Shown here: piece by piece, positions 3,153 through 6,478 of the stretch | Position numbering within the stretch: the stretch's first letter is position 1 | Layout: each line of letters begins with the position of its first letter | From: Aquificota bacterium | GTDB lineage: Bacteria > Aquificota > Aquificia > Aquificales > Aquificaceae | DNA length: 59,348 nucleotides | Assembly (NCBI GenBank): GCA_030549905.1 | Contig: JAUQQK010000012.1 | Span: 1 to 59,348 of the forward strand | Direction: 5' to 3' | Program-made: the position numbers and the translations under genes | Notes under the pieces: generated by a model | The model's database searches: none | Told to the model about the DNA's origin: nothing | Seen by the model: the letters and a program-made list of their open reading frames with translations, nothing else

Positions 3153-3488
3153 TTATTTACCCGCTTCCTCTCTCAGAGCCTTAAAGACCTCGTTGAAGGA
3201 TACTTCATCGTTATTCACGAACACACCCACATTACCCATTACGCATACAGAATACTTGGGACCCGTCAAAGCCCAGCCATGAAGAGGCGTCCATTCCTGT
3301 CCAGAAAAGGCTGTATATCCGTCGCACTGCATCTTAGCCATCATGTTGTTGGCGGCACACATTTCAGCTGCCATCGCCGCATGCTCTTCAGATATGTTGC
3401 CCCTGTAGGCAATGAGCTTGCCATCGTCAGAAAACTCTCCTGCTGCCCAAACTCCTTTGATTTGCATAAGCCTGTCAAGGTTCGCCAT
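3153..3488 (-). CDS. DUF2173 family protein, paralogue 2
   Basis: This 111-aa protein is a paralogue of its upstream neighbour (3501-3842). Both share a GEFxDDGxLxAYxGNI segment, an AAEMCAAN motif with a cysteine near residue 45, MQxxGxxAxxGQ, and a C-terminal CxMGNVGVFV stretch. The DUF2173 family is small, of unknown biochemical role, and roadblock-like in size and pattern; I recall it from sulfur- and hydrogen-oxidising bacteria. A GGAGGTATAGCC ribosome-binding site precedes the ATG. The two conserved cysteines (in MCAAN and in CVMGN) are the obvious candidates for function. The gene is probably co-transcribed from the sigma-54 promoter upstream of its paralogue. Confidence 0.8.
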   Translation of the reverse strand: MANLDRLMQIKGVWAAGEFSDDGKLIAYRGNISEEHAAMAAEMCAANNMMAKMQCDGYTAFSGQEWTPLHGWALTGPKYSVCVMGNVGVFVNNDEVSFNEVFKALREEAGK

Positions 3489-3500
3489 GGCTATACCTCC

Positions 3501-3842
3501 TTAGATGTATTTTGAAAGGATTTCAAAGGTTTTGTCAAAGTCCGCCTTATCAAGCTCTACAAAAACACCCACATTACCCATTATGCAGGCGGCGTATTTT
3601 CCGCCGGCTACCGCAAAGCCATAGACAGGATAAAAACCTCCCTGTCCTGTGTAGGCACTCCAGCCCTTTGCCTGCATGTTGCCCATGAGCTTGTTAGCGG
3701 CGCACATCATGGCGGCTATTTCTGCAGACTTCTCGTCAATGTTGCCATAGTAGGCAAGAAGCCTGCCATCGTCTGCAAACTCACCGGCCGCAACGGCGCC
3801 GGGTATGGACATAAGCTCCTTTAACTTGCTGAGCGTTGCCAT
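3501..3842 (-). CDS. DUF2173 family protein, paralogue 1
   Basis: This is the first gene of the minus-strand sigma-54 unit and encodes 113 aa. It begins with a helix ending in LMSIPGAVAAGEFADDG and shares the MMCAAN and CIMGNVGVFVELD motifs with paralogue 2. Pairwise similarity spans the full length, so the two arose by tandem duplication long ago. A strong ribosome-binding site (AAAGGAGGTGCAGAC) precedes the ATG, and a sigma-54 -24/-12 element ends about 39 nt upstream of the start. Its function is unknown. A roadblock-like, possibly dimeric small sensor or scaffold is one reading, made on size and pattern only. Confidence 0.82.
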   Translation of the reverse strand: MATLSKLKELMSIPGAVAAGEFADDGRLLAYYGNIDEKSAEIAAMMCAANKLMGNMQAKGWSAYTGQGGFYPVYGFAVAGGKYAACIMGNVGVFVELDKADFDKTFEILSKYI

Positions 3843-4036: not shown

Positions 4037-4546
4037 ATGGTTAGGCAGATACTGAGGTTTCCACACCCGCTTTTGAAGACGCCCACTAAGAGGGTGGATG
4101 TGATAGACAGGGAGATAAGGGAGCTTGTGAAGGATATGTTTGAAACCATGTATCATGCGGAAGGAGTGGGGCTTGCGGCAAACCAGATAGGTGAGAGCCT
4201 CAGGATAATGGTGATAGATACATCGCCCAAAAAGGAAGCCCCGCCCCTTAAGCTTGTCCTCATAAACCCGGAGGTCATACAAACGGAAGGAAGCATAAGG
4301 TATAGGGAAGGCTGTCTGTCCTTCCCCGGTCTTACAGTGGAGGTGGAAAGGTTTAGCAAGGTTGTGGTAAAAGCCCTTGACCTTGAAGGTGAAGAAAAAG
4401 AGTATGAGCTGGAGGGCTTTCCTGCCATAGTGTTCCAGCACGAGATGGACCACCTTGATGGTATAACCTTCATAGACAGGGTCAATGGACTAAAGAAAAG
4501 GCTCGCCCTTGACAAGTATGCCAAACTGCAGAAACAGAAGGCATGA
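4037..4546 (+). CDS. def: Peptide deformylase
   Basis: This metalloenzyme removes the formyl group from N-terminal formyl-methionine of nascent proteins. All three family motifs are present in a protein of normal length (169 aa): GVGLAANQIG near residue 44, EGCLSFPG near 96 whose cysteine binds the metal, and QHEMDHLDG near 140, which carries the HExxH-like metal ligands and catalytic glutamate. The ATG at 4037 gives the usual N-terminus (MVRQILRFPHPLLKTP). The stop overlaps the next gene start in ATGA form. Confidence 0.96.
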   Translation: MVRQILRFPHPLLKTPTKRVDVIDREIRELVKDMFETMYHAEGVGLAANQIGESLRIMVIDTSPKKEAPPLKLVLINPEVIQTEGSIRYREGCLSFPGLTVEVERFSKVVVKALDLEGEEKEYELEGFPAIVFQHEMDHLDGITFIDRVNGLKKRLALDKYAKLQKQKA

Positions 4547-4809
4547 AGGTGGAGCTCGTAGAGTTCTACCCCTTTGAAGTGTCAAACAGAAAGCCAAGGC
4601 TGTTAGCCTATGCGGATGTAAAGATTGACGGAAGGATTTTAATAAGGGGAATAAGGCTCTATGAGAGCAAGCATGGGGGCTATTTTATATCCATGCCCGA
4701 ATACAACCCGGAAACCGGCAGGGCTTTGGTGGAAATAGAGGACAAAGAACTCTTTGAGAAGATAAGAAGGGTGGTGGTGGATTACTACAAAGACCACATA
4801 AAGTCCTGA
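4543..4809 (+). CDS. SpoVG-like protein
   Basis: This 88-aa protein matches the small SpoVG family in length and pattern: an N-terminal beta strand (VELVEFYPFE), a central DVKIDGRILIRGIRLYES stretch, the hallmark GYFISMPEY near residue 46, and a C-terminal helix (LFEKIRRVVVDYY). SpoVG proteins bind nucleic acid and in several bacteria act as post-transcriptional or DNA-binding regulators. Here it is coupled to def by a 4-nt overlap. Its actual role cannot be read from the sequence. Confidence 0.75.
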   Translation: MKVELVEFYPFEVSNRKPRLLAYADVKIDGRILIRGIRLYESKHGGYFISMPEYNPETGRALVEIEDKELFEKIRRVVVDYYKDHIKS

Positions 4810-4857: not shown

Positions 4858-4885
4858 TGTTAATATAATTGCCATTATATTAACA
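4858..4885. other. dif-like 28-bp palindrome, candidate Xer recombination site
   Basis: A perfect inverted repeat of two 12-nt arms (TGTTAATATAAT and ATTATATTAACA) surrounds TGCC. Read as Xer sites are, it is 11-6-11: left arm TGTTAATATAA, centre TTGCCA, right arm TTATATTAACA. The inner AATATAA and TTATATTAA parts resemble the dif half-site pattern (CATAA and TTATGTTAA). It sits 90 bp before an HTH/coiled-coil gene and about 730 bp before a tyrosine recombinase gene. An operator bound by the HTH protein is the alternative. Confidence 0.55.
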
Positions 4886-4974
4886 TACACTAAAGCCTCC
4901 TGACACTCTACTATCAGTTGCCATCTGACATCAATAATATATAATCAATATCAAATAACTGTAAGGAGGTAGTC

Positions 4975-5607
4975 ATGAATGATATCAGCTTTGATGTCAA
5001 GATAAAGGCGTCCGAGTATGCAAGCCTGACTGGTCTGTCTCTCAACACGGTAAAAAACCGCATAAAGGCTGGTGTGCTCAAAGGTAGCAAGGAAGAGGAT
5101 GGTGTGTGGTATGTGTATTTAACACAGGAGGAACTGGAACACCTAAGGAGCTTAAGGGAAAGAGAGGAAGAAGGAACTAAAAACCTGCAGGCAAACTTAG
5201 AGGGCATGAAATCCACCTTAGAAGGCAGTTTAATAGCCACTTACATGTCCGCCCTCATGATGAAGGAACAGCAAAAAGAACAACTCCTCCATGAGCTTTC
5301 AAGCCTTTATACACTTCTGGCTATAAGGGAAAAGGAGATGGAATTCCTGTTAAAGGAGTTAGAACTTTTGAGGGGCAAATGTGAGGCAGTAGAGCAAGAA
5401 AACAAGGAGCTAAAAGATAAGCTAAGAGAAAAAGAAGAGGAACTCGCCCAGTTTAAAGAAAAGCTAAAGGAAAAGGACTATATCATATCTCAAAAGGACT
5501 TAGAGCTACAGAGGGTGGTGCTTGATAAGGACAGGGAAATACTCAGCAGAGATATGGAGCTTTCCGTATTGAAGATGGAGCTGGAGAAGAGGAAAAGAAA
5601 GGAATAA
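4975..5607 (+). CDS. HTH and coiled-coil protein next to a recombinase gene
   Basis: I do not recognise this 210-aa protein as a named family. Residues about 10-60 resemble an excisionase/MerR-like winged helix (IKASEYASLTGLSLNTVKNRIKAG, then VWYVYLTQEEL). From residue 60 to the end it is a nearly unbroken charged coiled coil (heptads rich in E, K, L). It has a strong ribosome-binding site (AAGGAGGTAGTC). The 28-bp palindrome lies just upstream. The recombinase gene begins 10 nt after its stop. A DNA-binding, multimerising accessory factor for the recombinase, or an autoregulator binding the palindrome, are both reasonable; there is no direct proof for either. Confidence 0.7.
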   Translation: MNDISFDVKIKASEYASLTGLSLNTVKNRIKAGVLKGSKEEDGVWYVYLTQEELEHLRSLREREEEGTKNLQANLEGMKSTLEGSLIATYMSALMMKEQQKEQLLHELSSLYTLLAIREKEMEFLLKELELLRGKCEAVEQENKELKDKLREKEEELAQFKEKLKEKDYIISQKDLELQRVVLDKDREILSRDMELSVLKMELEKRKRKE

Positions 5608-5610
5608 AAT
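5605..5610 (+). promoter_or_regulatory. -10 box TAAAAT before the recombinase gene
   Basis: TAAAAT overlaps the stop codon of the upstream gene and ends 7 nt before the recombinase ATG. There is no ribosome-binding site between, so leaderless expression from this box is possible alongside read-through. Confidence 0.4.
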
Positions 5611-5617
5611 ATAAAAC

Positions 5618-6478
5618 ATGGATAGGCTTATAGAACTGTGGCTCAGGAGCCTATCAAGAAGCAAGAGCCAGAGAACGCTCATAACCTATAAAAACTGCCT
5701 TCAATCCTTTGAAAAGTTCTTAGGTGAGGGGAATAAACTTTTGGAAATAGACCCAAAAGTAATCTATTCCTATGCGGACAACTCAGAGCTTTCCGTTTCT
5801 TCGCTTTTTACACACCTTTCCGCCATAAAACGTTTTTATAGGTTTGCTTTTAGAAGGGGTATGCTGAGCAAAGAAGCCTATTCAGAGATAGAGTCGGTAA
5901 TTGAAGACTTAAGAGAGGAGCTTTCCTCTGCGGGACTGAGTAAAAAGCCGAAGGCACTCACGCAAGAAGAGCTTAAAAAAATATTTGACCATGTGAGAAA
6001 CACCAGATATGAGCGAGTATATAGCCTATTCCTTTACAGCGGTATAAGGCTTTCTGAGTATGCCCAGCTCAGGTCTGAGTTTTTTCAGAAGGATAAAAGC
6101 GGTATATACTGGCTCAGGCTTCCTGCGGAGATAACTAAAAGGAGGAAGGAAAGGATAGTTCCTGTAATAGGTCCTACAAAGGAAGAAACCTATGAAATAT
6201 CCCATAAGCTTGACCACTGGCTAAAAGACTATGAGAGCATGAGAATAAACACGGGCTCCCTTCAGGTATACACCAACAGACTGTCTCAGAAACTAAACAT
6301 TCCCTTCTCCGTGCATAGTTTCAGGCATACATACATAACCAATCTGGTAAATTCGGGCTTCCCTGCGGAGGTGGTTAAAGAGTTTGCGGGACATTCCAAT
6401 GTAAAAACCACCATAGACATATACTACCGTTTTAATCAGGAAAGGGCTAAAAGGCTGGTGGAAGACTTCCTGTTATGA
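5618..6478 (+). CDS. Tyrosine recombinase, Xer-like
   Basis: This 286-aa protein is a tyrosine site-specific recombinase with a SAM-like core-binding domain (residues about 1-100) and a catalytic domain. The full active set is visible: Arg144 in SGIRLSEYAQL, a lysine in the KRRKERIVPV beta hairpin, HSFR (His233, Arg236), His259 in FAGHS, and the nucleophile Tyr269 or Tyr270 in TIDIYYRF. Length fits XerC/D, XerH or archaeal XerA rather than phage integrases with extra arm-binding domains. Only one such gene is in the window, and it sits in a housekeeping context (its stop overlaps the trmD start). It is therefore a good candidate for the chromosome-dimer resolvase acting at the dif-like site at 4858-4885. 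Confidence 0.85.
   Translation: MDRLIELWLRSLSRSKSQRTLITYKNCLQSFEKFLGEGNKLLEIDPKVIYSYADNSELSVSSLFTHLSAIKRFYRFAFRRGMLSKEAYSEIESVIEDLREELSSAGLSKKPKALTQEELKKIFDHVRNTRYERVYSLFLYSGIRLSEYAQLRSEFFQKDKSGIYWLRLPAEITKRRKERIVPVIGPTKEETYEISHKLDHWLKDYESMRINTGSLQVYTNRLSQKLNIPFSVHSFRHTYITNLVNSGFPAEVVKEFAGHSNVKTTIDIYYRFNQERAKRLVEDFLL

Follow-up and report, generated by a model that had tools for sequence, protein, structure and literature searches.

The timing and placement of chromosome dimer resolution in cells without FtsK, the motor that ordinarily powers the final step of chromosome separation, is a question common to archaea and to bacteria that lack this motor, and the locus described here raises it for the heat-loving Aquificaceae. 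In Escherichia coli, FtsK activates and places the Xer reaction, and the cer and psi sites of plasmids use accessory proteins that bind next to the recombination core (PMC5357621). In the window, meaning the whole stretch of 59,348 nucleotides that was analysed, a 28-bp palindrome precedes a gene for a protein with a helix-turn-helix (HTH) and a coiled coil, which is followed by a gene for a Xer-type tyrosine recombinase (xer). A previous sequence-only reading of this DNA took the three for one module that resolves chromosome dimers with a single recombinase. Here, we ask how far the site, the recombinase and the partner gene belong together across the family, and what the partner might contribute.

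The palindrome, a candidate dif-type recombination site assigned to neither strand, occupies positions 4858..4885 and reads TGTTAATATAATTGCCATTATATTAACA. As first described, its perfect 12-bp arms flank TGCC, which is equivalent to an 11-6-11 arrangement with TTGCCA at the centre (TGTTAATATAA TTGCCA TTATATTAACA). It is the sole perfect inverted repeat in the window with arms of at least 12 and a loop of 0-12, compared with a mean of 0.06 such repeats in 100 dinucleotide-type shuffles of the window. The sequence-only reading had named many genomic copies as an argument against a dif site; in the source genome (1.65 Mb in 28 contigs, 99.9% complete), the only match with up to three mismatches allowed is the palindrome itself. 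The distance to the ATG of the HTH gene at 4975, put at roughly 90 bp in that reading, measures 89 bp. Directly upstream of the site, at 4543-4806, lies a gene for a SpoVG-domain protein (PF04026, 9e-9), arranged with def as in an operon; elsewhere, SpoVG binds DNA and regulates septation. Farther upstream, on the minus strand at 3153-3842, two neighbouring paralogous ORFs of ~110 aa each (MANLDRLMQIKGV.. and MATLSKLKELMSI..) probably represent a tandem duplication.

Comparison with related Aquificales, which the sequence-only reading had called for, places this palindrome in a family-wide class of sites. A scan of 112 genomes of the order, 64 of them from the family Aquificaceae, with the pattern GTTAAYATAATNNNNNTTATRTTAAC at up to three mismatches recovered a site with 0-2 mismatches in at least 47 of the 64 Aquificaceae genomes, including all 11 closed chromosomes. 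The reversed pattern, used as a control, has almost no matches within the family, and the Aquificaceae genomes without a site match are mostly drafts. Ten of the 11 closed genomes harbor a single site at 0-2 mismatches, and the other (G006) has a weaker second one with two mismatches. The family consensus is TGTTAAYATAA-TTGCYA-TTATRTTAACA (28 bp, 11-6-11). When 45 sites are aligned with their flanks, conservation reaches 1-2 bits at exactly these 28 positions, except in the centre, and stays at or below 0.55 bit outside them; because the alignment was selected by pattern, the inner conservation is partly a selection of hits, whereas the flanks were free to vary. The arm segment TTATRTTAA resembles the XerD half-site of E. 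coli dif. Conservation that ends at the borders of a family-wide 28-bp 11-6-11 site bears out the initial dif-type assignment, and the Aquificaceae site is strongly predicted to be a dif site.

The full symmetry stressed in the sequence-only reading holds for the window site but does not extend to many relatives. One arm carries a G (TTATGTTAA) in 27 of the 45 sites, and the other mostly an A (TTATATTAA), so perfect symmetry is a trait of some species rather than a rule. The only broken symmetry common to all sites is the 6-bp centre, which agrees with the role of symmetry-breaker originally given to it. Matching of the central region can set site orientation, as in loxP.

Several further observations concern the distribution of such sites. 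A second palindromic site (GTTATTATAAGTGTGCTTATGTCAAC and variants), common to genus g3 and differing from the dif pattern by three mismatches, was seen in G015:C128, G024:C53 and G031:C160. In G008, a 99% complete genome of the genus to which the window belongs, xer, the HTH/coiled-coil gene and the site are all missing, which may reflect a single gap in the assembly or the disappearance of the whole module. Among IMG/VR sequences, nine viral contigs (L275-L283) match the site pattern exactly; relatives of the three proteins were not found on these nine contigs. Several of them have identical flanks and may come from phages whose integration site is dif.

Strand skew is readable in two closed genomes, and there the switch taken as the terminus falls 5-6% of the chromosome away from the site. 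Plain GC skew was dropped as a locator since it is confounded by gene orientation, and we instead used third-codon skew corrected for gene strand (G+T versus C+A) with a permutation null. Two sharp switches, far above the permutation nulls, appear in G023 and G018; in G029 and G007, the third-codon skew does not rise above its null. For G023 (1,559,514 bp), the origin falls at ~1,183 kb, the terminus at ~442 kb and the site at 361 kb, a site-to-switch distance of 82 kb or 5.2% of the chromosome (random-placement chance ~0.10). For G018 (1,753,429 bp), the corresponding positions are ~1,674 kb, ~787 kb and 678 kb, a distance of 109 kb or 6.2% (chance ~0.12). These offsets of 80-110 kb exceed that of E. 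coli, and the skew is readable in these two genomes only. The gene dnaA was rejected as an origin marker, its distance from the site spreading from 0.4% to 45% of the chromosome. In G018, dnaA lies 7 kb from the site (C1:678-685 kb), near the skew-defined terminus and not the origin; likewise, five drafts of genus g6 (G033, G072, G075, G077, G078) have dnaA 5-7 kb from dif. For genomes where dnaA does not mark the origin, the site may offer a near-terminus marker.

The recombinase, a single Xer-type enzyme of 286 aa, is encoded at 5618..6478 on the plus strand. Its ORF begins 10 bp past the end of the 210-aa partner ORF, and trmD overlaps its end. It matches Phage_integrase at 7.5e-20, and the complete R-K-HxxR-H-Y set recognized earlier (R144-K174-H233xxR236-H259-Y270) is conserved among 22 relatives, with R144, K174, R236, H259 and Y270 invariant and H233 nearly so. 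Most Aquificaceae carry one full-length orthologue per genome, and f3, the order's other large family, yielded recombinases of 23-32% identity only. Scores against the XerA, XerC and XerD models are roughly equal and all below their cut-offs; the top score among Xer models belongs to XerA (NCBIfam NF040815, 92.9 bits, cut-off 220), and the XerS model gives 42 bits (cut-off 267). By sequence, the nearest solved structures belong to XerA from Pyrococcus (4a8e) and Thermoplasma (5hxy). XerH was compared by fold only (5jk0). Subfamily assignment from an AlphaFold model of the recombinase was abandoned, with XerA, Cre and XerH matching about equally.

The source genome encodes one other tyrosine recombinase, a 359-aa protein on C19 with SAM-like and arm-like domains. 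Because this is a phage-type integrase, the 28 contigs yield no XerC/XerD pair of the kind that, with a better dif elsewhere, had been named as evidence against the locus, and the claim of one recombinase stands. The C19 integrase gene (L002 967-2046, G000:C19) lies upstream of a [NiFe]-hydrogenase-like small-subunit gene. Given the site, the recombinase and their conservation, dif/Xer recombination at this site is very likely, and chromosome dimer resolution would be its predicted function.

The FtsK gamma domain was detected in none of the 61 Aquificales searched, versus eight of 14 control genomes. Controls without it include Thermotoga, a cyanobacterium and archaea, so its absence is not unique to Aquificales. 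The FtsK motor family PF01580 gave partial matches of 25-90 positions and no full motor match. In the source genome, the partial match sits in a 611-aa PLD/HerA-like ATPase, an ORF read from sequence (L087, G000:C10, 607-2442), in which a phospholipase-D-like domain is apparently fused to a HerA-type ATPase. The absence of FtsK is what lends interest to the candidate accessory gene.

That gene (4975..5607, plus strand) adjoins the site and encodes a winged-HTH/coiled-coil protein of 210 aa, a candidate accessory factor or tether. In profile searches, HTH_17 gives 14.7 bits only (cut-off 27), neither the window protein (E up to 1) nor 20 family members match KfrA or RacA in Pfam, and Pfam and PDB searches with the family alignment return general coiled-coil matches only. 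In the AlphaFold2 model (mean pLDDT 91.5), residues 7-50 form a winged HTH, which is followed by one 159-residue helix (51 to 209). In Foldseek searches, the head finds as its top matches the DNA-binding domains of RacA, the chromosome-anchoring protein of Bacillus (5i44/5i41, probability 0.98-1.0, with a weak E of 0.025-0.05), followed by BldC and phage excisionases. A scan of 84,980 species returned 15 records and restricts the family to Aquificota, the lone Acidobacteria-labelled record, equal in length to contig C34 of G009, being read as a mislabelled MAG; the protein is absent from the 72,556 plasmids and 50,697 phages scanned.

The HTH/coiled-coil gene adjoins the site in every genome where both can be placed, and its start lies 54-98 bp from the site in 25 genomes. 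In the window, the intervening promoter region (4886..4974, plus strand) features TGAYA/TRTCA half-sites at ~4901-4905, 4912-4916, 4926-4930 and 4949-4953. The 25 orthologous gaps contain 98 such half-sites against 19 expected and a maximum of 31 in 200 shuffles, an enrichment to be read with the common descent of the gap sequences in mind and with some TTGACA copies probably being -35 boxes. Some half-sites are spaced ~10 bp apart, and together they probably form a binding array for the HTH/coiled-coil protein.

The coiled-coil gene travels with the site and not with xer. The order of site, HTH/coiled-coil gene and xer, which the sequence-only reading proposed as a module, recurs in its own genus and in G015, G017, G022, G079 and G080; it breaks down in six closed genomes (G014, G016, G018, G023, G029, G030), where xer lies away from the site. 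In five of these six, the site retains an HTH or ribbon-helix-helix (RHH) coiled-coil partner, and four (G014, G023, G029, G030) keep the HTH/coiled-coil gene at the site with xer hundreds of kb off. Genes on the other side of the site vary by genus and include SpoVG-like and serA-like genes, the guaA and argB regions and others (names read from sequence). The three-part order is thus no universal module: the site keeps the coiled-coil gene where xer is distant, and in some genomes that gene is itself swapped for an RHH gene or missing.

The swap concerns genera g6 and g9, in which an unrelated RHH/coiled-coil protein (RHH_1, 32-35 bits) with an almost invariant C-terminal KRRWFF is encoded beside the site. 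In 14 of the 15 genomes that match this protein strongly, the gene's start is some 90-130 bp away from the site. In the RHH genomes, TGTAATACA occurs ~10 bp from dif and a second time at the promoter; these repeats, which are separate from the 28 bp, are probably binding sites of the RHH protein. A partner is absent or damaged in a few cases: Aquifex aeolicus (G016) has the site and xer, with nothing of the coiled-coil kind encoded at the site; in G019 and G034, a frameshift or stop breaks the RHH/coiled-coil relative that adjoins the site. The partner thus cannot be essential in every genome. Extra pairs of a dif-like site (one to three mismatches) and an RHH/coiled-coil gene, with the site about 130-180 bp upstream, occur in G031 (C58:5588-6063 and C189:4210-4682) and G081 (C73:3965-4452). 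These pairs lie on other contigs, and the genomes may hold plasmids or integrated elements.

Placed among known systems, the recombination core is of a familiar kind. With E. coli XerCD/dif and FtsK it shares a 28-bp 11-6-11 site, present once per chromosome and near ter in the two genomes with readable skew, and an RK-HxxR-H-Y recombinase; it differs in having one recombinase rather than two, a nearly symmetric site, and an order in which neither the FtsK gamma domain nor a full motor match was found. Archaeal XerA/dif is an FtsK-independent system of a single recombinase and a 28-bp site, which can adjoin its gene or be distant from it and need not coincide with the terminus (PMC5357621). 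Single recombinase, 28-bp site and, as proposed here, independence of FtsK are common to the two, and the closest structures by sequence are those of XerA; the system here has a bacterial host, scores far below the XerA model cut-off and includes a dif-linked coiled-coil gene. XerS/difSL and XerH/difH also rely on a single recombinase, and the XerS gene adjoins its site, but difSL is 31 bp with an 11-bp centre, difH is asymmetric and both are FtsK-assisted, unlike the present 28-bp site with its 6-bp centre.

For the partner, parallels are looser. In the cer and psi systems, accessory proteins (ArgR, PepA, ArcA) bound next to the Xer core govern the reaction with no need for FtsK (PMC5357621), which the putative arrangement here resembles; those sites are on plasmids, and the proteins are unrelated ones of the host whose genes do not adjoin the site. 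RacA and KfrA share the build of an N-terminal DNA-binding head and a long coiled coil, and KfrA is autoregulatory. To our knowledge, neither is dif-linked. The main survey of bacterial dif sites has no Aquificae entries in its Table 1 (PMC3025954), and among the papers searched none dealt with dif, Xer control or FtsK loss in Aquifex or Aquificales. The single-recombinase dif/Xer system is of a known kind, and a dif-linked coiled-coil partner in FtsK-less bacteria is, as far as checked, new.

We propose that the locus is an FtsK-independent, single-recombinase dimer resolution system in which a coiled-coil protein linked to the site acts as accessory factor or tether, a reading that we hold to be reasonably probable. 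One tyrosine recombinase would act as a homotetramer on two (nearly) symmetric 28-bp sites to convert chromosome dimers to monomers. There would be no FtsK to bring the sites together, to activate the recombinase and to restrict the reaction to the division septum, and the dif-linked coiled-coil protein may do part of this work. Its head would bind the half-sites within the 55-130 bp beside dif, and the protein would dimerise and extend through a rod of about 160 residues, thereby bringing two dif copies together or holding the site at mid-cell or the membrane; it would also regulate its own promoter. Different genera fill the same place with two unrelated builds, a winged HTH and an RHH with a KRRWFF-type tail. 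The linkage and the fold swap are read most economically if the rod-like DNA-binding protein assists in the pairing, activation or positioning of dif, and an accessory role at dif is accordingly the predicted one.

A plainer account grants that dif/Xer is real and holds that the coiled-coil gene is merely autoregulated and kept near dif with no part in recombination, its product being, for example, a terminus-dosage-sensitive nucleoid or segregation protein. Since the TGAYA/TRTCA half-sites, like the TGTAATACA sites, cover the gene's own promoter, plain autoregulation suffices to explain them, and it would fit with an Aquifex that manages without the gene and with the broken copies in G019 and G034. 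We nevertheless regard this account as rather unlikely: the site-gene pair persists though the neighbours on the other side change between genera, a second and unrelated DNA-binding coiled-coil protein stands in the same place in g6 and g9, and the RHH gene and a dif-like site recur jointly on further contigs of G031 and G081. The same fold swap bears on whether the palindrome could be an operator of the HTH protein unconnected with Xer. Although it precedes the gene in all HTH genomes, the same 28 bp adjoin an RHH gene in two genera and, in Aquifex aeolicus, no gene of either kind, which argues against an HTH operator, as two unrelated folds would not read one sequence. The arms moreover hold the Xer half-site TTATRTTAA at 11-6-11 spacing, the separately enriched TGAYA half-site makes a better operator, and xer is found across the family, contrary to the refuting case considered in the sequence-only reading, in which relatives lacking the recombinase would keep the palindrome purely as an operator. 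An operator is accordingly a highly improbable explanation of the palindrome.

Mobile elements suggest another origin, in which a plasmid-type stability cassette of a dif-like multimer-resolution site and a KfrA-like coiled-coil protein was taken over by the chromosome, where the copy may be a relic or may contribute to segregation more than to the resolving of dimers. Plasmid-borne KfrA proteins form rods and regulate their own expression (PMC7821693). In G064, a contig of 4.5 kb (C20, L130) encodes an RHH/coiled-coil protein ending in RKWWQFWKI and a large replication-type ORF, and its dif-like site (three mismatches) at position 2 recurs at 4369, so the contig is probably a circular plasmid. 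A relative ending in KRWWEFWRR is encoded on the A. aeolicus plasmid ece1 (L284 3804-4076, minus strand). The G064 contig and the ece1 relative suggest a plasmid link, but the 8 kb of ece1 examined have no dif-like site at up to six mismatches, and the HTH version is on none of the plasmids and phages scanned. The chromosomal site, for its part, is family-wide, single-copy and near ter in two genomes, and it persists without a partner in Aquifex. Overall, we judge a captured plasmid cassette improbable and return to the site-linked accessory or tether protein as our preferred reading.

In summary, the Aquificales present a case with no recognisable FtsK, a clear dif, one recombinase and, almost always, a DNA-binding rod protein beside dif. 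A rod protein that is kept beside dif despite a changed neighbourhood and a changed fold is a testable candidate for an FtsK substitute or helper, and the question of the dif partner reduces to a concrete two-protein test with thermostable proteins. More tentatively, it is possible that, without FtsK, a dif-bound coiled-coil protein of two folds took over the pairing, activation or septal positioning of dif. If true, such a takeover would constitute a new class of dimer-resolution control.
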